Below are positions 158 to 14,444 of a stretch of 51,904 nt of DNA, in pieces. The notes under the pieces were generated by a model that did not search any database, was not told the DNA's origin, and worked only from the letters and a program-made list of their open reading frames with translations. The DNA is from Candidatus Gemmiger avistercoris (GTDB lineage Bacteria; Bacillota; Clostridia; Oscillospirales; Ruminococcaceae), in assembly GCA_019116705.1 (NCBI GenBank), contig DXBF01000068.1, positions 1 to 51,904 on the forward strand. Reading direction: 5' to 3'. Positions within the stretch are counted from its first letter, which is position 1; each line of letters begins with the position of its first letter. Made by a program: the position numbers and the translations under genes.

Positions 158-838
158 TCACATGTGCAGGCGTTTTTCCAGTTCGCTGCGCAGTTCCCGC
201 CCCTGGAAGATCAGCAGCCCCAGGAAAGTGATGACGCTGATGATGAGGCAGACCACCCAGGGGATACTGTGGGTGCTGACTTCCCCGTCCCCGATGCGGG
301 ACGCCAGCAGCAGGTAGGGCAGCACCCCTACGCCGATGTTCAGCAGCAGGTAGACCAGCGCGTTGCGGGTGAAGCGGCTGCGCCAGAAGGCGAAGATGAA
401 GTTGCAGACCAGCGTAACACTGCACAGAATGGGGATGACAAGATCCACGCTATAGCCGGTGTAGCCGTTGAACCAATCGGTGAAGATCAGCAGGCCGGAG
501 ACCAGCAGCAACAGCAGAAAGACCTGCCGCGGGCCGTTATAGCGGCGGCGCAGCACCCCGCGCAGCACCAGCAGCGCCGCCAGCACCCACACCAGAAGCA
601 GCAGGCTGCCGTGGCGGTGGGGCGTTTCAATGAGCAGGAAATCCACTGCCGCCGCCACCACGGTGCCGGCCAGCAGCAGAAACGCCACGATCTTGTACAG
701 CATCGCAAAGCGGTGCACAGGGGCCGTCAGGTGGGGCCACCAGGGCGGTTCCGCCGGACCGGACAGGCGGTTCTGGCACAGCGGGCAATACTCGCTGTCG
801 CCGCCGATCGCAATGTGGCAGTGCGGGCAGGTCCTCAT
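158..838 (-). CDS. DUF6320 zinc-ribbon membrane protein
   Basis: This 226-residue protein begins with a short zinc ribbon (CPHC at residues 4-7, CPLC about 14 residues further on) followed by about six hydrophobic helices, so it is a polytopic membrane protein with a cytosolic metal-binding tip. That layout matches the DUF6320 family, which has no established activity. The ATG at 838 overlaps the stop of the upstream acyltransferase gene (ATGA), a sign of translational coupling; a longer reading frame to 970 exists but has no ribosome site. DUF6320 genes commonly sit beside HxxxD acyltransferases and hydrolases in Clostridia, so a role in the same lipid or glycan acylation step is a reasonable inference. 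Confidence 0.75.
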   Translation of the reverse strand: MRTCPHCHIAIGGDSEYCPLCQNRLSGPAEPPWWPHLTAPVHRFAMLYKIVAFLLLAGTVVAAAVDFLLIETPHRHGSLLLLVWVLAALLVLRGVLRRRYNGPRQVFLLLLLVSGLLIFTDWFNGYTGYSVDLVIPILCSVTLVCNFIFAFWRSRFTRNALVYLLLNIGVGVLPYLLLASRIGDGEVSTHSIPWVVCLIISVITFLGLLIFQGRELRSELEKRLHM

Positions 839-2085
839 TTTTCCACCTCCGTGGCATACAGCGTTACAGCCAGGCCGTCGGCGGCGAACCCGCGGTACAG
901 CCTGCGCAGCACGTTGGTACTGCGCAGCGCCGAGGCGGTGCCCAGCACCAGATCGTCCCCGTAGGAACACACGCAGGTGAACAGCCCGTCGCAGCTGGAG
1001 AAGGCGGAAAACCGCCGGATATACGGCTGCAGGGCTTCATCCACCTCGATCCGCCCCATGTTGGACAGCACCGCCGTCACATGCCGCTCCTCCAGCCGGT
1101 TGAAAAAGCGCACCGCCGCGTTCTTGATGAACAGCGGCACCGGGCGGATGCCGGGCATATGTTCGAGTTTTTCGTATTCATCCATCTGGGCTTTCACCTG
1201 CTCGGGCGCCAGGACTTCCTTGAGTTTTGCATCGAAAGCCGGGGCCACTGTTTCCAGCGTATCGCCGTCGTTCAGCGTCAGGATCACGTAGACCGAGTTG
1301 AAAAAGTTCCGCGCCGTCTCGCTGGGGTAGTAATGGCGCAGGTTCACCGGCAGACTGATGGAAATGGGCCGCCGCCGTTCCAGCGCAGGCATTTCGGCAT
1401 AGACGGCCAGCATGAGGGACGCCCCCAGGTAACTGGTCAGCGAGACCCCCAGCCCCCGCGCCCGCGCCAACAGCTGGCACAGGCTGAGGTGCCCCTCAAA
1501 ATATTGCAGCTGGTCGTAAGGCAGGCGGGCGCCGTGCAGATGGTACGTTTTGGGCAGGCGGGCGGCGCCGGCGCGCCGGGTGCCGCCGTAAAAGTTGCGG
1601 AAACTGTCCTGTTCGAGATCCGCCTCCGAGGCGCCGTTGGGCGTAGGCACCTGTTCCAGCGCGCCGGGATTCTGGAGCGCCAGATAGTTGCGCACAATGG
1701 ATTTGAGGAAGAGGAATCCCCCGTTGCCGTCGGTCATGGCGTGGAACATTTCCAGGTTGATCCGCGCGCCGAAGTAACTCACCCGGTAAAGCAGCTGGTC
1801 CCGCCGTTCGGGCACGTACAGCGGCGCGCAGGGGGTCTTGCGCTCCTGACGCGCCACCGGGACCTGGTCTGTGGATTCAAAATAATGCCAGAACAGCCCG
1901 CGGTGCAGCGTCACCTGGAACTGCGGCCACTCCTGCGCCGTGCGGCGCAGGGCTTCGTTGAGAAGGTCCGGGTCCACCTCCCGGGTCAGCGTGCAGGACA
2001 GGCGGAACACCCGCGGGTCCCGGCGGCTCGTCGTGGCCAGAAACACTTTGGCGACATTATCCACTTTATACCATGACGGCGCCAT
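835..2085 (-). CDS. HxxxD-type acyltransferase (alcohol acetyltransferase / condensation-like fold)
   Basis: A 416-residue soluble protein with HAMTDGNG near residue 120, the HxxxDG signature of the CoA-dependent acyltransferase superfamily (condensation domains, alcohol acetyltransferases, papA-like enzymes). The histidine would act as base in transfer of an acyl group to an alcohol. A C-terminal segment with SNMGRIEV resembles the structural DFGWG-like region. A GGGGAG ribosome site precedes the ATG at 2085. It is third of four genes read from 4048 down to 158, with 27 nt to the hydrolase upstream and a 4-nt overlap with the DUF6320 gene downstream. The acceptor is unknown; the adjacent glycosyltransferase-like gene hints at a glycolipid or surface glycan. 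Confidence 0.75.
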   Translation of the reverse strand: MAPSWYKVDNVAKVFLATTSRRDPRVFRLSCTLTREVDPDLLNEALRRTAQEWPQFQVTLHRGLFWHYFESTDQVPVARQERKTPCAPLYVPERRDQLLYRVSYFGARINLEMFHAMTDGNGGFLFLKSIVRNYLALQNPGALEQVPTPNGASEADLEQDSFRNFYGGTRRAGAARLPKTYHLHGARLPYDQLQYFEGHLSLCQLLARARGLGVSLTSYLGASLMLAVYAEMPALERRRPISISLPVNLRHYYPSETARNFFNSVYVILTLNDGDTLETVAPAFDAKLKEVLAPEQVKAQMDEYEKLEHMPGIRPVPLFIKNAAVRFFNRLEERHVTAVLSNMGRIEVDEALQPYIRRFSAFSSCDGLFTCVCSYGDDLVLGTASALRSTNVLRRLYRGFAADGLAVTLYATEVEK

Positions 2086-2112
2086 TCCTACTCCCCTTTC
2101 CCGGCCGGGCGG

Positions 2113-3093
2113 TCACATCAACCGCTGTACGAACCGGCCCGCGGACTCCATTGCCACCTCCGCGCGGTGGATCGGCATCTGCTGGAACACATGCCAGCAG
2201 TCCTCGTAAACTTCCAGCCGGGCGTAGCCGCCCGCTTTCTGCATCGCTTCGGCCAGCCGCTCACTGTCCGAACGCAGGATCTCATTGGTGCCCACCTGGA
2301 TCAGCGCGGGCGGCAGGCCGCGCAGGTCGGCAAACAGCGGGCTGTAGCAGGGCTCGGCCCAGTCCGCGTCGGGGCCGGTGTAGGCTTCCCGCACGGCTTC
2401 CACATATTCCCGCGTCAGCATGGGGTCCAGGTCCCGGCAGGCGCGGTAGCTCTTGCCGCTGGCCGTCATATCGGTCCAGGGGCTGAACAGCAGCAGGCCC
2501 CGGGGCTGCGCACGGCCCTGTGCCTTGAGTTTGAGGCAGAGTTCCAGCGCCAGATTGCCGCCGGCGGAATCCCCCGCCACAACCACATCCCGCGCGCCGT
2601 AGCCCATATACATCAGGTAATCCCACAGGGCCAGCGCATCCTCCAGCGCCGCCGGGTAGCGGTGCTCCGGCGCCAGACGGTACTCGAAGGAGAGCACGTC
2701 GAACCCGGTGCAGAAGGCCAGCTTGCTGGCCAGGATGCGGGCGTAGCCCAGCTGGCCGCAGGTATAGCCGCCGCCATGGCAGTACAGCACAGCGTGGCGG
2801 CGGTCATGGCCATGCTCGAGGCTGACCCACTCCGCCGGGATGCTGCCGACGGTCAGCCCGTCGCTGCGGATGCCGAAGGCAGGGGTCACCAGGCGGCCGA
2901 AAAGTTCCTGGGCGGCACGCTGGCGTTCCAGATCTTCCGGCAGGGTGGAGGTGCTGCCGGTGACGCTATGGACCGCCTTGATGGCGCGCATCATCGGCCC
3001 CAGTTCGTCGGCGTTCTGCCCGCGCTGGGGGATCAGGTTCTTGATGACCGTCTCCAGCCTCTGGGTCAGGTCTTTGGCATTGCGTTTCGCCAT
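2113..3093 (-). CDS. Alpha/beta hydrolase, hormone-sensitive-lipase (HSL) family
   Basis: The 326-residue protein carries the two HSL signatures: HGGGYTCG (oxyanion hole) in the first half and GDSAGGNL (nucleophile elbow, catalytic serine). The histidine of CWHVFQ near the C-terminus and an aspartate in the ILRSDSERL segment are good candidates to complete the triad. HSL enzymes hydrolyse short-chain acyl esters or acetylated sugars. The ATG at 3093 follows CAGGAGGAGACC; a longer frame to 3324 is composed of cysteine-rich shadow sequence and was not used. Sixteen nucleotides separate it from the glycosyltransferase-like gene upstream. A deacylase next to an acyltransferase suggests an acyl-group cycle on one substrate, which is inference. 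Confidence 0.85.
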   Translation of the reverse strand: MAKRNAKDLTQRLETVIKNLIPQRGQNADELGPMMRAIKAVHSVTGSTSTLPEDLERQRAAQELFGRLVTPAFGIRSDGLTVGSIPAEWVSLEHGHDRRHAVLYCHGGGYTCGQLGYARILASKLAFCTGFDVLSFEYRLAPEHRYPAALEDALALWDYLMYMGYGARDVVVAGDSAGGNLALELCLKLKAQGRAQPRGLLLFSPWTDMTASGKSYRACRDLDPMLTREYVEAVREAYTGPDADWAEPCYSPLFADLRGLPPALIQVGTNEILRSDSERLAEAMQKAGGYARLEVYEDCWHVFQQMPIHRAEVAMESAGRFVQRLM

Positions 3094-3109
3094 GGTCTCC
3101 TCCTGTGGT

Positions 3110-4048
3110 CTAGTCCGGCAGGCGTGCCAGCAGCCGCACGCGCAGCGTCGCCAGCAGCGGCGGGCGGGCGGCAGGCAGGCAGCACAGGCGGTGCACCCGC
3201 GCAGGCGGCGGGAACACCCCTTTGCGGCTGTAGCTGCGGTAGAGCAGCCTGAGCTGCCGCTCCTTGGCTGCGCCGGGCAGGTGCAGGATGCACACCGGGT
3301 CCAGCACGTAGTTGGTGGATACAAAATAGAACCGCCCGCCCAGCCAGTAGCGGAAAATATAAGCGTTGGCGGCCCGCACCGGCTGCCCGGCCAGCAGGCT
3401 GCGGTAGGCGGCGCCGCACCAGACGGCTTCGTCCCCTTCCCGGGGTGTGATGCCCGCCTGCTGCATCTGCGTGAAATAGTGGCGGCAGTGCTCCATCAGG
3501 GCCTGCAGGCGGGGTTTGCTGCCCGCCACCAGCTCGCCGCCGAAATGGGTCAGCACATGGGGCGCGCCCTCGGGGCAGACCGCATCATAAATGCGGGAGA
3601 TCGCCTGCGCCATGCCCTGCCCGGCCGCATGGGGCACCTGATAGAACAGCACGGCCTCGCCGGCTTCCCGCCAGAGGTCGTCCAGCGGGTACTGGGTGTA
3701 GGTATCCAGGTCGATCATGGCCGCGCGGGCAAAGTCCCGGTTGGCCAGCACCCAGTCCATGGCGCAGAGTTTGTAGTAGGCCAGGGCCCAGTTCGTCTCC
3801 GCCGGGACGCGGTAGGCCGTGAACGGGCAGTCCCAGACTTCCACCCCGGCTTCCTTCAGCTGGCCCAGAAAGGGCTGCGGCGGCGGGGCGTTGGTCACCA
3901 GCGCCACCGTACAGCCGGGGTTCTGCGCCTTGGCGCTGCACAGCGCCACCACGGTGCAGCGGTCGTAGGCCGCCCGCCCCAGGTTGGCGCTGTCCCCTTC
4001 GCGGTAACCTTCCAGCGTGGCAAAGGCGCCGAAGATCAGGTTTTCCAT
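3110..4048 (-). CDS. Glycosyltransferase-like protein (nucleotide-sugar fold, GT8-like)
   Basis: A 312-residue protein opening with a beta strand (MENLIFGAFATLEGY) and a Rossmann-type first half, then MIDLDTYTQYPLDDL near residue 130, where D-L-D fits the metal-binding DxD of GT-A enzymes such as glycogenin-like family 8. The C-terminus is basic and arginine-rich, suggesting membrane or polyanion contact. Start ATG at 4048 is preceded by CAGGAGGGGACC; the frame could be extended to 4204 but without a ribosome site. It is the first gene of the minus-strand operon ending at 158. Assignment to a glycosyltransferase rests on fold-like pattern only; donor and acceptor are not visible. Confidence 0.55.
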   Translation of the reverse strand: MENLIFGAFATLEGYREGDSANLGRAAYDRCTVVALCSAKAQNPGCTVALVTNAPPPQPFLGQLKEAGVEVWDCPFTAYRVPAETNWALAYYKLCAMDWVLANRDFARAAMIDLDTYTQYPLDDLWREAGEAVLFYQVPHAAGQGMAQAISRIYDAVCPEGAPHVLTHFGGELVAGSKPRLQALMEHCRHYFTQMQQAGITPREGDEAVWCGAAYRSLLAGQPVRAANAYIFRYWLGGRFYFVSTNYVLDPVCILHLPGAAKERQLRLLYRSYSRKGVFPPPARVHRLCCLPAARPPLLATLRVRLLARLPD

Positions 4049-4090
4049 CGGTCCCCTCCTGTCCGATATGCTCATCGCTCCGTTTTTTAC

Positions 4091-4119
4091 ATTATAGTCC
4101 CTTTGGCGCGGGTTGTCCA
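4091..4119 (-). promoter_or_regulatory. Sigma-A promoter for the 4048-158 operon
   Basis: On the minus strand TGGACA (4119-4114) is separated by 17 nt from TATAAT (4096-4091). It lies about 43 nt upstream of the glycosyltransferase-like start. Confidence 0.65.
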
Positions 4120-4185
4120 TGCTTTTGGCGGGGCGGCCCTTGCCGCATTGGCACGAAAAAAGGCGGAAATCTTTGTCTGTACCGC

Positions 4186-4214
4186 TTGCCGAACCGGCAA
4201 ACACACCGTATAAT
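4186..4214 (+). promoter_or_regulatory. Sigma-A promoter for the MBOAT operon
   Basis: TTGCCG (4186-4191), 17-nt spacer, perfect TATAAT (4209-4214), 43 nt before the MBOAT ATG. Together with the minus-strand promoter at 4091-4119 it makes this a true divergent control region. Confidence 0.7.
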
Positions 4215-4257
4215 GGTAACAGATGTAAATTTTTTATGAAAGTTGCGGAGCGGATCT

Positions 4258-5667
4258 ATGGCGTTTTCGTCGGTACAATTTCTTTTTGTCTTTTTGCCCC
4301 TGGCACTGGCCGTCTACCACATCCTGCCCCGGTGGATGCGCAACGGCGTCCTGTGCGCCTTCAGCCTGCTGTTCTTTGCCTGGGCAGGGCTGCGCGGCGC
4401 GCTGCTGCTGGTGGGGCTCGCCGCCCTGAACTGGGCCGGCGGCCTGGTGCTGGGGCGCGCGGCGCACAAACGGCGCTGGCTGGCGCTGCTGACCGCCGCC
4501 GACCTGGCGGTGCTGCTGGCCTTCAAATATGCAGCCTTCGCCGCAGAGAGCGTCAATTTCTTCGTTCCCGGCCTGCTGCCGGTGTTCGCCCCCGCCCTGC
4601 CGCTGGGCATCAGCTTCTACCTGTTCACCTCCATCGGCTACTGCGCCGATGTGGCCGCCGGAAGGGTGGAACCTGCGCGCAACCCCGTCCGTTTTTTCGT
4701 GTTTCTCGCCTTCTTCGGGCACGGCCCTTCGGGTCCCATCGTGCGGTACGGGCAGCAGCTGCCGCAGCTGGACCCCCGCGCGGAGGCCCGCCAGGTCACG
4801 CTGGACCGCTTCTGCTACGGTATCAAGCGGCTGGTTTTCGGTCTGGCCAAAAAGGCTGTCATCGCCGACCAGCTGGCGCTGATCTATCAGCGGGTGACCT
4901 CGGTGCCCGCCGCCACGCTGCCCGCCCCCATCCTGGTGCTGGGCTACGCGGCCTACATGATGCAGCTGTACTTTGACTTTTCCGGCTACAGCGATATGGC
5001 CATCGGCATCGGCGCCTTCTTCGGGCTGGAACTGCCGGAGAACTTCAACTACCCCTATCTGGCCCGCACCGTGGGCGAATACTGGCGGCGCTGGCACATC
5101 ACGCTTTCCAGCTGGTTCCGGGATTACGTCTACATCCCTCTGGGCGGCAGCCGCTGCAGTACCGCCCGCACCTGCCGCAACCTGCTGGTGGTCTTTGTGC
5201 TCACCGGCCTGTGGCACGGCGCCGCCTGGCAGTATGTGGTCTTCGGCCTGCTGCACGGGCTGCTGCTGTGTGCCGAGCGCCTGGGCCTGCGCAGCCTGCT
5301 GGAAAAACTGCCCGCCGTGCTGCGCCACCTGTATACGCTGCTGGCGCTCTACTTCACCCTGATCCTCTTCGGCGCGCCCGGCCTGCGGGAAGGCCTGACC
5401 GCGCTGGCCGGGATCTTCCGCTGGCAGGAAGGCGCCCCCGGCTATACGCTGGCCGCCTTTGCCGACGCCAAGCTGCTGCTGATCCTGGCGCTGGCGGCGC
5501 TGCTCTGCGGGCCGCTGCAGGCCATGATCCCACGCCTGAAGGAAGCGCTCTGCTCCAGGAAGGCCCCCGGCCCCGTGATGATGCTCTGGCTGCTGGCGCT
5601 GCTGTTCCTGGGGCTGATGCGGGTGACCGCCGGCACGTACAGCGCCTTCATCTATTTCCAGTTCTGA
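4258..5667 (+). CDS. MBOAT family membrane-bound O-acyltransferase (AlgI/DltB-like)
   Basis: A 469-residue polytopic membrane protein with about eleven hydrophobic segments. The re-entrant core shows NFNYPYLARTVGEYWRRWHI followed by SSWFRDYVYIPLGGSR, and later LTGLWHGAAWQYVVFG; the WRRWHI and WHG histidines are the MBOAT active-site signature. Such proteins move an acyl group, usually acetyl, across the membrane to an extracellular polysaccharide or teichoic acid. A GGAG lies 7 nt before the ATG at 4258; an in-frame TTG at 4243 is less likely. Thirteen nucleotides separate it from the DHHW gene, its expected extracellular partner. The polymer modified is not determined. Confidence 0.92.
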   Translation: MAFSSVQFLFVFLPLALAVYHILPRWMRNGVLCAFSLLFFAWAGLRGALLLVGLAALNWAGGLVLGRAAHKRRWLALLTAADLAVLLAFKYAAFAAESVNFFVPGLLPVFAPALPLGISFYLFTSIGYCADVAAGRVEPARNPVRFFVFLAFFGHGPSGPIVRYGQQLPQLDPRAEARQVTLDRFCYGIKRLVFGLAKKAVIADQLALIYQRVTSVPAATLPAPILVLGYAAYMMQLYFDFSGYSDMAIGIGAFFGLELPENFNYPYLARTVGEYWRRWHITLSSWFRDYVYIPLGGSRCSTARTCRNLLVVFVLTGLWHGAAWQYVVFGLLHGLLLCAERLGLRSLLEKLPAVLRHLYTLLALYFTLILFGAPGLREGLTALAGIFRWQEGAPGYTLAAFADAKLLLILALAALLCGPLQAMIPRLKEALCSRKAPGPVMMLWLLALLFLGLMRVTAGTYSAFIYFQF

Positions 5668-5680
5668 GGAGGGACCACCT

Positions 5681-6751
5681 ATGAAAAAACTGGCGCAAGC
5701 TGTTTTTGCCGTTCTTTTCTGCGCGGTGCTGGGCCTTTCCTTTGCCGTGTTCAACATTTTTTCCAAGCAGCTCTCGATGGACAGCCACGAAAACCGCCTG
5801 ATGACCGGTCTGCCCCAGGTGCTGCAAAGCCCCCTTTCGGAACTACCGCGGAACCTGGACAACTTCTTTGTGGACAATTCCCCTTTCCGCTACCAGTTCG
5901 TACTGCTGGACGCCGGCCTGGATTACCGGCTGTTCGGCACCAGCCAGAGCGACCAGGTCCTGCCCGGCAAAGACGGCTGGCTGTTCTATAAGGACGGCCC
6001 CACCGCCGCGCAGCCGATGGCCAACTACCAGGGCCTGACGGCGGTCAACGACAGCCCCGAAACGCTGGCCAAAGCCAGCGCCGCCCTGCAGATCTTACAC
6101 GACGATCTGGCCGAGAACGGCTGCCAGCTGGTGCTGGACCTGACCCCCAGCAAAGACCGCATCTACCGCGAATACATGCCCGCCGGCTACCCCATCGTGA
6201 ATGAGCAGAACCGCACCGATCTGATGGTCGAATACCTGCGCCTGCACACCACGGTCCCGGTGGTCTGGCAGTACGAGACGCTGCGCAGTCAGGCGCGGCT
6301 GTACCCGGAGCGGCTGCTCTACTACAAGACCGACACCCACTGGAACGAACTGGGCGCGCTGATCGGGCTGGACGGCGTGCTGGAAGCGCTGGGCCTGCCC
6401 ACCCTCGCCCCCGAGGAGTATACCGTCACATCCGACGGCACCACTACCGGCGACATGGCCAACGTGGCCGCGCTGTACGCCGTCCTGCCGGAAGAGGTGC
6501 GCTACACCGTGCCCGGTTACGAGACGCTTTTCCCCCGGGACGAGCGGGTGGTGCGGGTGATCGGGGATTCTTTCAGCGAAGCCTACATGCCGTATCTGGA
6601 AGACCGCTTTGCCAGCTGCTGGCGGGAACACATCGACACCTTTGACCCGGCCATCGCCGAGGCCCCCGCCTGCGACATCCTGATCCTGGAATTCAACGAG
6701 CGCAGCCTGGACACCATGCTGCGCATCCTGGAAAATTTCCACCCGGAGTAA
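5681..6751 (+). CDS. DHHW family protein (AlgJ/AlgX-like acetyl transfer partner of MBOAT)
   Basis: A 356-residue protein with one N-terminal membrane anchor (residues 5-26, uncleaved signal) and a large extracytoplasmic domain. It has the family landmarks: GKDGWLFYKDG near residue 100, KTDTHWNELGA near 220 (the D-x-H-W motif), and IGDSFSEAY near 290 (SGNH-type serine). In alginate-type systems these residues carry the acetyl group from the MBOAT protein to the polymer outside the cell. An AGGAGGGACC ribosome site precedes the ATG. It directly follows the MBOAT gene and is the last gene before a hairpin at 6809-6853, so the two form a dedicated O-acylation unit. Confidence 0.88.
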   Translation: MKKLAQAVFAVLFCAVLGLSFAVFNIFSKQLSMDSHENRLMTGLPQVLQSPLSELPRNLDNFFVDNSPFRYQFVLLDAGLDYRLFGTSQSDQVLPGKDGWLFYKDGPTAAQPMANYQGLTAVNDSPETLAKASAALQILHDDLAENGCQLVLDLTPSKDRIYREYMPAGYPIVNEQNRTDLMVEYLRLHTTVPVVWQYETLRSQARLYPERLLYYKTDTHWNELGALIGLDGVLEALGLPTLAPEEYTVTSDGTTTGDMANVAALYAVLPEEVRYTVPGYETLFPRDERVVRVIGDSFSEAYMPYLEDRFASCWREHIDTFDPAIAEAPACDILILEFNERSLDTMLRILENFHPE

Positions 6752-13011: not shown

Positions 13012-13040
13012 TTGACGTTTTAAGAAAAAAAAGGTACACT
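13012..13040 (+). promoter_or_regulatory. Promoter for the DUF1292 gene
   Basis: TTGACG (13012-13017), 17-nt spacer, TACACT (13035-13040), 37 nt before the ATG at 13077. Confidence 0.7.
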
Positions 13041-13076: not shown

Positions 13077-13403
13077 ATGTCTGACGAACTGAGCCCCGAA
13101 ATGCTGGAAGAAGCTTCTCCCGATCTGCTCACCCTTGAGGATGAGGACGGGCAGGAAGTCACCTTTGAAGTCATCGACGCGACCGAAGTCAACGGCACCC
13201 GCTATCTGGCCGTGATCCCCTATCAGGCGGACCCGGACAGCCTGCAGGAGGATGCCGAACTGATCCTGATGCGCATCGGCACCGACGAAGAAGGCGAATA
13301 TATGGACATTGTGGACGATGACGAGGAACTGCTCACCGTCGGCAAAGTGTTCGAGGAACGCCTGCGGGCGATGTACGACATCGACGATTCGGAGTTGGAC
13401 TGA
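13077..13403 (+). CDS. DUF1292 acidic protein (YrzB-like)
   Basis: A 108-residue, very acidic cytosolic protein. The core TLEDEDGQEVTFEVID, then YLAVIPYQ and LILMRIGTDEEGEYM, is the DUF1292 pattern found in almost all Firmicutes (B. subtilis YrzB). No biochemical function is established. CAGGAGGGACCATC precedes the ATG at 13077; the frame runs back to 13002 over the promoter and was not used. DUF1292 genes are often linked to ruvX, which is nearby on the same strand. The structured RNA candidate starts 33 nt after its stop. Confidence 0.85.
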   Translation: MSDELSPEMLEEASPDLLTLEDEDGQEVTFEVIDATEVNGTRYLAVIPYQADPDSLQEDAELILMRIGTDEEGEYMDIVDDDEELLTVGKVFEERLRAMYDIDDSELD

Positions 13404-13436
13404 TCGAGCGTGCGCATCCCTGCGCGGTGCGATTTG

Positions 13437-13643
13437 TTGCAGCCTTTATAGAATCCTACTAATCAAATATTGGGAGCTTGCGTCGGGCGCCGGAACGCAG
13501 ACCTCCCGCTTCGGCGGAAGAAGGGAGCGCGAACGCGCCCGCAGGGCACCCACCTGCCTGTACCGGTAGGTTTTGATTGGCTGCAGACGGCCAAGCGGGG
13601 TTTTTGAAATTCCACCCGGACGGGGCTCCCTGTCCGGGTTTTT
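13437..13643 (+). ncRNA. Structured RNA candidate (rod-like, possibly 6S-type or a leader)
   Basis: The 273-nt gap between the DUF1292 and redoxin genes is full of complementary segments. An outer stem TGCAGCC (13438-13444) / GGCTGCA (13579-13585) is followed by AATCAAA (13461-13467) / TTTGATT (13572-13578); these are contiguous on the 3' side but separated by a 16-nt bulge on the 5' side. Inside, CGGGCGC / GCGCCCG and CTCCC / GGGAG stack below a CCGC-TTCG-GCGG tip, while CCTG-TACCGG-TAGG forms a small side hairpin on the 3' strand. A strong terminator (13615-13643) ends it. The long rod with asymmetric bubble recalls 6S RNA, but no family match can be claimed by eye; it could also be the leader of the redoxin gene. 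Confidence 0.5.
13615..13643 (+). terminator. Terminator at the end of the structured RNA
   Basis: CCCGGACGGGG...CCTGTCCGGG hairpin followed by TTTTT, 34 nt before the redoxin start codon. It would end the RNA or act as an attenuator for the downstream gene. Confidence 0.85.
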
Positions 13644-13676
13644 GGGTGGTTAATAACTGGAAAGGAGGGGGGATCT

Positions 13677-14444
13677 GTGGGCGAACGTATTTCCGTGGGG
13701 GACAAACTGCCTTTCTTTTTATACGATACCCCCTACAGCGCCCAAAACCGCTTCCGCGACCTGCTGGCAGCCAAAACGCCGTTGGTGCTGATCTTCATGG
13801 CCAATTTCGGCCACCCGATCACCCGGACTTTTGCCAGCCGCTACGCGCAGACCTTCGGCGCTTTACAGGACGGCGCGCTGGCGCTTGTGGTACGTTCCCG
13901 GGCCGATAAGCTGTCCCACAGTATCGGTCCCGACACGCTGCCCTATCCCCTGCTGTGCGACGCCGACGGCGTCCTGTACGACCATCTGGACATTCCGCAG
14001 AACAGCAGCGCCCTGATGACCTACTCGCTGGAGGGTTGGCGCATCCTGCGGGAAGCGAAGAAACAAGGGTACCGCGCCGCCCGCGGCACGCCGCAGCAGC
14101 TGCCGCTGACGCTGATCCTGGACCGGGACGGAACCGTCCTGTTCTGCCATTACGGCGCAAGCCTGACCGATGTACCGGAGGACTGCGCCTCCATCCAGAG
14201 CCTGCTGGAAGAACTGGACCTGACGCCGGACGTGCCGGATTCTTTCCAGGACCTGTACGACGCCCGCAGCTCTGCAGAAGAGGAACTTCCGCCGGAACGG
14301 CCCCGACGTACCCGGCGGGGCCGCCGGCCGTCCGCCCCGGAGGACGACTTTGCCCCGGCCGAACCGATACGCGAGTACAATGCGCCGGACCTGGCCGCCA
14401 CTTCGGTGGTCAGCCTGTTCGACGATCCCTACGCAGACGACTGA
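13677..14444 (+). CDS. Redoxin / AhpC-TSA-fold protein lacking the redox cysteines
   Basis: A 255-residue cytosolic protein. Residues 1-180 have the thioredoxin/peroxiredoxin layout: VGDKLPFFLYD, then PLVLIFMANFGHPITRTF where related proteins have a CxxC or PxxxTxxC centre, then a strand-helix pattern ending LTLILDRDGTVLFCHYG. At the active-site position the residues are H-P-I-T, so a classic cysteine peroxidase or disulphide activity is not expected. After about residue 185 comes a charged Arg/Glu-rich tail. The start is a GTG at 13677 with AAAGGAGGGG upstream. It follows the structured RNA and ends at a shared terminator with the GNAT gene. Function is unassigned. Confidence 0.65.
   Translation: MGERISVGDKLPFFLYDTPYSAQNRFRDLLAAKTPLVLIFMANFGHPITRTFASRYAQTFGALQDGALALVVRSRADKLSHSIGPDTLPYPLLCDADGVLYDHLDIPQNSSALMTYSLEGWRILREAKKQGYRAARGTPQQLPLTLILDRDGTVLFCHYGASLTDVPEDCASIQSLLEELDLTPDVPDSFQDLYDARSSAEEELPPERPRRTRRGRRPSAPEDDFAPAEPIREYNAPDLAATSVVSLFDDPYADD

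Follow-up and report, generated by a model that had tools for sequence, protein, structure and literature searches.

The 51,904-nucleotide stretch of Candidatus Gemmiger avistercoris DNA analyzed here (the window) carries a long structured RNA in the gap between two protein genes, which raises the questions of what this RNA is and how it comes to be made. An initial annotation, prepared from the sequence, had placed it at 13437–13643 with a terminator of its own, had likened its plan to that of 6S RNA and had assigned it to no family. The Rfam search and the alignment with relatives that the annotation proposed have both been carried out and are reported below.

Family assignment and distribution of the RNA

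In a scan of the whole window with Rfam 15 at gathering thresholds we obtained a single match, to 6S RNA (RF00013) at 13414–13605 of the forward strand. The match scores 58.8 bits against a gathering threshold of 46.4 and covers model positions 1–187 of 187, which is the full length of the model; the ends of the 192-nt RNA are good to within a few nucleotides. A permissive scan of 13300–13800 (E up to 10) returned the same match together with three others that lie under their own gathering scores. Riboswitches, SRP RNA, RNase P RNA and tmRNA, the signatures of which the annotation had likewise reported as absent, gave no Rfam match at gathering in the window, and ARAGORN detected neither tRNA nor tmRNA. 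The genome to which the window belongs, which is 83% complete, contains one RF00013 match.

6S RNA is a long-known small RNA that mimics a promoter and sequesters RNA polymerase when bacteria are at rest. Because RF00013 reports the RNA above gathering, the view that it belongs to no assigned family was wrong, and the remark that its plan recalls 6S RNA was correct. The latter is borne out by the full-length match and by 14 loci that were found through a redoxin-like downstream neighbor (13 labeled Gemmiger and one Faecalibacterium; not all are independent, as several are the same contigs as genomes of the genus set): RF00013 scores over its cutoff just upstream of that neighbor in 14 of 14. 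E. coli ssrS reaches 139.8 bits with the same model, and the score of the window is moderate by comparison, which counts against the assignment. A covariance model that we built from 33 genus sequences with the bubble helix described below left out (R1) gives the window RNA 216.3 bits, but the window was in the R1 training set.

RF00013 matches at E≤0.001, scored with stricter filters, were present in 53 of 61 genomes comprising the source genome and its relatives, with 49 over the cutoff. Within the genus, 33 of 35 genomes have a match, and a 34th copy (in G028) is cut by the contig end. A wider draw from the family yielded matches in 165 of 197 genomes, 136 of them over the cutoff. R1 finds 84 of 85 other loci, missing only L002. 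It also matches in six of the eight genomes of the 61-genome set that have no RF00013 match, G028 among them, an observation indicating that RF00013 misses or under-scores some Oscillospirales 6S RNAs. Neither RF00013 nor R1 has a match in G002 or G040, and the absence from G002, a genus member whose assembly is 86% complete, is a point against. Taking these data together, we consider it nearly certain that the sequence at 13414–13605 encodes Gemmiger 6S RNA. An RNA that had seemed to lack a family is in this way accounted for by the standard model.

Conserved fold and the central bubble

All structural elements that had been described are present in the sequence. Because the RNA begins at about 13414, however, the interval given for them misses the first 23 nt and with them the 5′ arm of the closing stem (13418–13431, forward strand like all features named here), which pairs with 13588–13600 as helices 1 and 2, each with one pair that changes on both sides. 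What had been called an outer 7-bp stem does exist but is really the inner closing helix beside the bubble (P2), not the outermost one. Its 5′ strand at 13437–13444 pairs with 13579–13586 (13438–13444 with 13579–13585, plus a U-G pair 13437–13586); 100% of its cells are paired across the genus and three of its eight pairs show two-sided change. The 3′ strands of helices 1–3 together occupy 13579–13600. P2 is followed on the 5′ side by a one-sided 16-nt bulge at 13445–13460, which is the 5′ central bubble and, by its alignment position, the putative pRNA template, and then by AAUCAAA (13461–13467), the 5′ strand of the bubble helix. The 3′ strand of this helix, UUUGAUU at 13572–13578, is identified by the genus consensus fold and by the own-versus-cross pairing described below. 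The bubble helix is contiguous with P2 on the 3′ side only, and the annotation drew a rod with a one-sided bulge because this helix lies beside P2 and both are predicted together. The apical arm (13472–13551, helices 5–8) has eight pairs with two-sided change and forms a rod that in the window is tipped by UUCG (13510–13513, within CCGC-UUCG-GCGG at 13506–13517). This loop is not conserved in the genus, the alignment of which is variable and interrupted by gaps at the apical loop. A hairpin of the 3′ central bubble at 13552–13571 has seven pairs, with 100% of cells paired and a change from C-G to U-A at one pair in eight sequences.

The alignment that underlies these statements consists of 33 distinct genus sequences with an RNAalifold consensus of 52 pairs. 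Standard pairs occupy 98.7% of the structural cells, as against 36–47% after the partners are slid by 1–3 columns. Changes on both sides are seen at 14 of the 52 pairs, a number reached by 0 of 500 shuffles, and they include at least one pair in each of the closing stem, P2, the apical arm and the 3′-strand hairpin. Four of five covariation measures exceed all 500 shuffles; for the weakest, that of further pair types, 36 of 500 do at least as well as the real alignment. Folding energy would give some comfort to the alternative of a chance GC-rich fold or repeat with no RNA function, as the energy of 13414–13605 is just 1.9 sd below that of shuffled sequences (z −1.90, 10 of 200 as stable); for 13437–13643 the corresponding values are z −2.54 and 2 of 200. 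We give folding energy no weight because it is a weak test on its own and sequence comparison decides. Conservation, compensatory change and the family-model match contradict a chance fold, and we regard it as extremely improbable.

Within the genus the bubble helix shows no covariation. It is almost invariant, with one unpaired cell among the 33 sequences, and for this reason the genus is uninformative on whether the helix is kept for pairing. We therefore compared pairing of each 5′ bubble strand with its own 3′ strand and with those of other loci in 77 relatives that have distinct bubbles, the remainder of a set of 85 after removal of the window, the six relatives closest to it and a duplicate. 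The mean energy was −1.42 kcal/mol with the own strand versus −0.07 kcal/mol in cross pairings (permutation sd 0.14), a difference reached by 0 of 2000 permutations, and after clustering to 27 dissimilar bubbles the values were −1.94 versus −0.11, again with 0 of 2000 permutations. Own pairing beats the median cross pairing in 52 of the 77 relatives and does not in 25, and several of the 77 lack a stable helix. Two controls gave effects that are much smaller but not nil: one paired the template segment of the bubble with this 3′ strand (own −0.29, cross 0.02; 3 of 2000 permutations), and the other used the 3′ strand reversed (own −0.05, cross 0.15; 105 of 2000). It is the size of the effect that counts here, because relatedness inflates such tests. 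Own-versus-cross pairing thus supports the bubble helix across relatives. In the RNAalifold consensus fold the 7-bp helix closes part of the bubble and the neighboring 16-nt 5′ strand stays open, so that the free RNA is predicted to have a partly closed central bubble. A further candidate, pairing of CCUAC (13455–13459) with GUAGG (13566–13570) across the bubble helix, is possible in Gemmiger; judged by eye it is lost in many relatives, and it was dropped.

The RNA for which a pRNA start at U44 has been named is, we presume, E. coli 6S RNA. In alignments to RF00013 read by eye, C13459 of the window (C46 of the RNA) and E. coli U44 both fall on model position 45. U44 is named as a pRNA start in PMC8876501. 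RNA positions 40–53 (window 13453–13466), which include C13459, are invariant in 33 of 33 genus sequences. From these positions we infer that the one-sided bulge is the pRNA template with its start opposite C13459; the bulge sequence TATAGAAT at 13448–13455 would lie within that template. Many copies outside Gemmiger carry, as seen by eye, a recurrent TATAATCCAAC-like motif in the 5′ bubble, for which the Gemmiger equivalent is ATCCTAC. This motif is probably the pRNA template.

Directly supported for this RNA are its membership in the covariance model, a conserved and covarying structure, a conserved gene neighborhood and a conserved promoter before the upstream gene. How it would act is reasoned from the family. 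By analogy with other 6S RNAs, its expected target is the sigma-A RNA polymerase holoenzyme, which it would bind by mimicry of an open promoter; the polymerase would then copy the 5′ strand of the central bubble into a short pRNA, probably starting opposite C13459 and heading toward the 5′ end. Synthesis of the pRNA would then open the helix 13437–13444/13579–13586 and lead to release of the RNA.

Gene neighborhood and origin of the transcript

Ten nucleotides upstream of the 6S RNA, on the same strand, lies a gene for a 108-aa DUF1292 protein (13077–13403; PF06949, 64 bits, cutoff 24). Using an HMM built for this analysis, we found that DUF1292 precedes 6S in 33 of 33 Gemmiger loci, in 64 of 70 other loci of the family and in 14 of 15 other loci of the order. 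Thus DUF1292 is directly upstream of 6S in 111 of the 118 loci of family and order. This link differs from the situation in lactic acid bacteria, for which PMC8414754 describes another conserved 6S neighborhood, with rarA and uspA. Our search of the open-licence literature found nothing that joins 6S RNA with DUF1292 or with Ruminococcaceae. At one locus (L095; G062 contig C3, 1075668–1081819) two units in direct orientation, at 423–3191 and 3384–6152, match exactly over at least 2769 bp, the second running to the end of the fetched stretch. Each unit holds DUF1292 and 6S, and the 6S copies at 1501–1691 and 4462–4652 are identical; the repeat is either a recent duplication or an assembly artefact.

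Downstream of the RNA is an intrinsic terminator at 13614–13643, composed of an 11-pair stem (13614–13639) followed by TTTT, and terminator-like hairpins were seen by eye after many Gemmiger copies. The terminator of the initial annotation is thus present, whereas the independence of the RNA as a gene, which that annotation implies, is in doubt, since we found no convincing promoter beside 6S. Beyond the terminator is a redoxin-like gene at 13677–14444 (PF00578, 19.9 bits, under the cutoff of 26), for which our promoter scan shows no promoter; its transcription would need read-through, or else a promoter missed in that scan. The terminator directly precedes this gene and the pair of 6S and redoxin-like gene is kept in 33 of 33 Gemmiger loci, as would suit an RNA that serves merely as leader or attenuator for the redoxin-like gene and switches it through the terminator. 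However, the redoxin-like gene follows 6S in 0 of 17 loci tested outside Gemmiger, though the RNA persists there, and RF00013 is the sole Rfam family found at gathering, which makes a mere leader very unlikely.

The distance from the DUF1292 stop codon to the start of 6S is 3–55 nt in 33 of 33 Gemmiger loci. We scanned for promoters adjacent to 6S, defined by a −10 that ends 3–45 nt from the RNA and scored as consensus matches out of 12. The family sample used for promoters and synteny is not random: it comprises 68 new loci from the upper part of the score list of the 165 matching genomes, plus G035 and G036. Outside Gemmiger, an adjacent promoter of at least 9/12 is found in 2 of 33 loci with gaps of up to 30 nt, in 10 of 15 with gaps of 31–60 nt, in 25 of 30 with gaps above 60 nt and in 7 of 7 that have no DUF1292. 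The 54 genera of the family sample divide into 17 with only short gaps, 34 with only wider gaps or no DUF1292, two that are mixed, and Gemmiger itself, which has a wider gap in G012. An adjacent promoter occurs in 1 of the 17 short-gap-only genera and, in all of their members, in 28 of the 34 with wider gaps or no DUF1292.

In Gemmiger, adjacent scores of at least 9 occur in 2 of 33 loci versus 35 of 330 control windows. Among the Gemmiger loci with short gaps, none of 32 has a −10 of 5/6 in its best adjacent match, and the best match adjoining 6S in the window reaches 4/12. Other results count against the processing argument made below: 7 of the 33 short-gap loci outside Gemmiger do have a −10 of 5/6 or better in the best adjacent match, and G012, despite its 55-nt gap, has an adjacent score of only 7/12. 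The conserved promoter lies before DUF1292: TTGAC[GT]-N17-TA[CA]ACT with a variable spacer sequence is present in 33 of 33 Gemmiger loci. In the window it is TTGACG-N17-TACACT at 13012–13040 (9/12 consensus matches), which we infer to drive both DUF1292 and 6S. The pattern occurs once in the window versus 0 expected, and three times in the 1.95-Mb genome versus once for a reversed control. We considered a good promoter before DUF1292 as a mark of the short-gap class alone and rejected this, since such promoters are common in all gap classes: scores of at least 9 are reached in 30 of 32 short-gap loci of Gemmiger and 28 of 33 outside it, in 15 of 15 loci with middle gaps and in 26 of 30 with wide ones. 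The processing argument rests on the absence of an adjacent 6S promoter together with the near-invariance of the one before DUF1292.

From the short distance to the DUF1292 stop codon, this near-invariant promoter and the lack of a convincing adjacent one, it follows that the 6S RNA is probably made as part of a longer transcript that starts at the DUF1292 promoter, and is then excised from the 3′ end of this transcript. In the most likely picture, transcription would begin at about 13047, a position estimated from the −10, and continue across DUF1292 and 6S as far as the terminator, and cutting and trimming of the transcript would yield the 6S RNA of about 190 nt. An alternative is that 6S is not processed and that its own promoter is concealed within the last part of the DUF1292 coding sequence. 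The many wider-gap relatives with a promoter beside 6S speak for it, weak or activator-dependent promoters escape consensus scans, and at a score of at least 8 Gemmiger exceeds the controls (12 of 33 loci versus 54 of 330 windows). These last scores are driven by a TTGACA/TCGACA-like match with a poor −10, and the counts at a score of at least 9, the −10 elements, the window's own best match and the conserved promoter before DUF1292 all stand against a hidden promoter, which we consider possible but unlikely. A search for an embedded promoter by synonymous-site conservation along DUF1292 had no proper null, and over-extended starts had stretched its alignment to 277 columns although the gene has only about 108 codons; we conclude nothing from it.

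Our broader reading, which is tentative and to which we give somewhat less than even odds, is that 6S RNA lacks its own promoter in Gemmiger as well as in a substantial share of related genera, where cleavage would free it from the DUF1292 mRNA 3′ end. Its level would then be set by the promoter of that protein gene and by a nuclease. As part of the same reading, the promoter-mimicking bubble would also be partly closed in the free RNA by a conserved helix and would therefore have to be opened by polymerase. The RNA is an ordinary 6S RNA, mildly unusual only in that it is apparently excised from the tail of a protein-coding messenger and not expressed from a separate promoter. The missing promoter and the conserved bubble helix are modest points and not a new system.

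Comparison with 6S RNAs of other bacteria

As in E. coli ssrS and the RF00013 model, the RNA is a rod of about 190 nt with a closing stem, a central bubble and an apical arm, and, as with ssrS between zapA and fau, protein genes adjoin it on the same strand. Unlike the situation at ssrS, the upstream protein gene here seems to supply the promoter. The two also differ in that the 3′-bubble hairpin is here already predicted in the free RNA, as it is in Bacillus subtilis 6S-1 according to the description in PMC8876501.

An RNA made from a longer precursor has a precedent in the ssrSA-ssrSB operon of Bacillus thuringiensis where, according to PMC7726162, the second tandem 6S gene (ssrSB) has no promoter and is made from a longer precursor. 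The Gemmiger RNA would resemble ssrSB, as described there, in both respects. It would differ in its upstream partner, which in that account is another 6S RNA and here would be a protein-coding gene. The locus raises, in a common gut commensal genus, the question of whether a global regulator of RNA polymerase can be a processed mRNA 3′ end.

The likeness is closer with B. subtilis 6S-1, which according to PMC8876501 has a hairpin in the 3′ central bubble and a pRNA start opposite C40. The Gemmiger RNA shares the hairpin, a putative pRNA start opposite a C in the 5′ bubble (C46 here) and, by prediction, a helix that joins the distal 5′ bubble with the strand after the hairpin. Judged from that description, the bubble helix would lie at the position of the B. 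subtilis central bubble collapse helix. This raises the further question of whether the B. subtilis bubble helix contributes generally to how 6S RNA works among related Firmicutes. According to the same source, the collapse helix of 6S-1 uses the 3′ strand of P2 and forms once pRNA synthesis has opened P2. The Gemmiger helix differs from this description in that it lies beside P2 and is compatible with it, both being predicted together.
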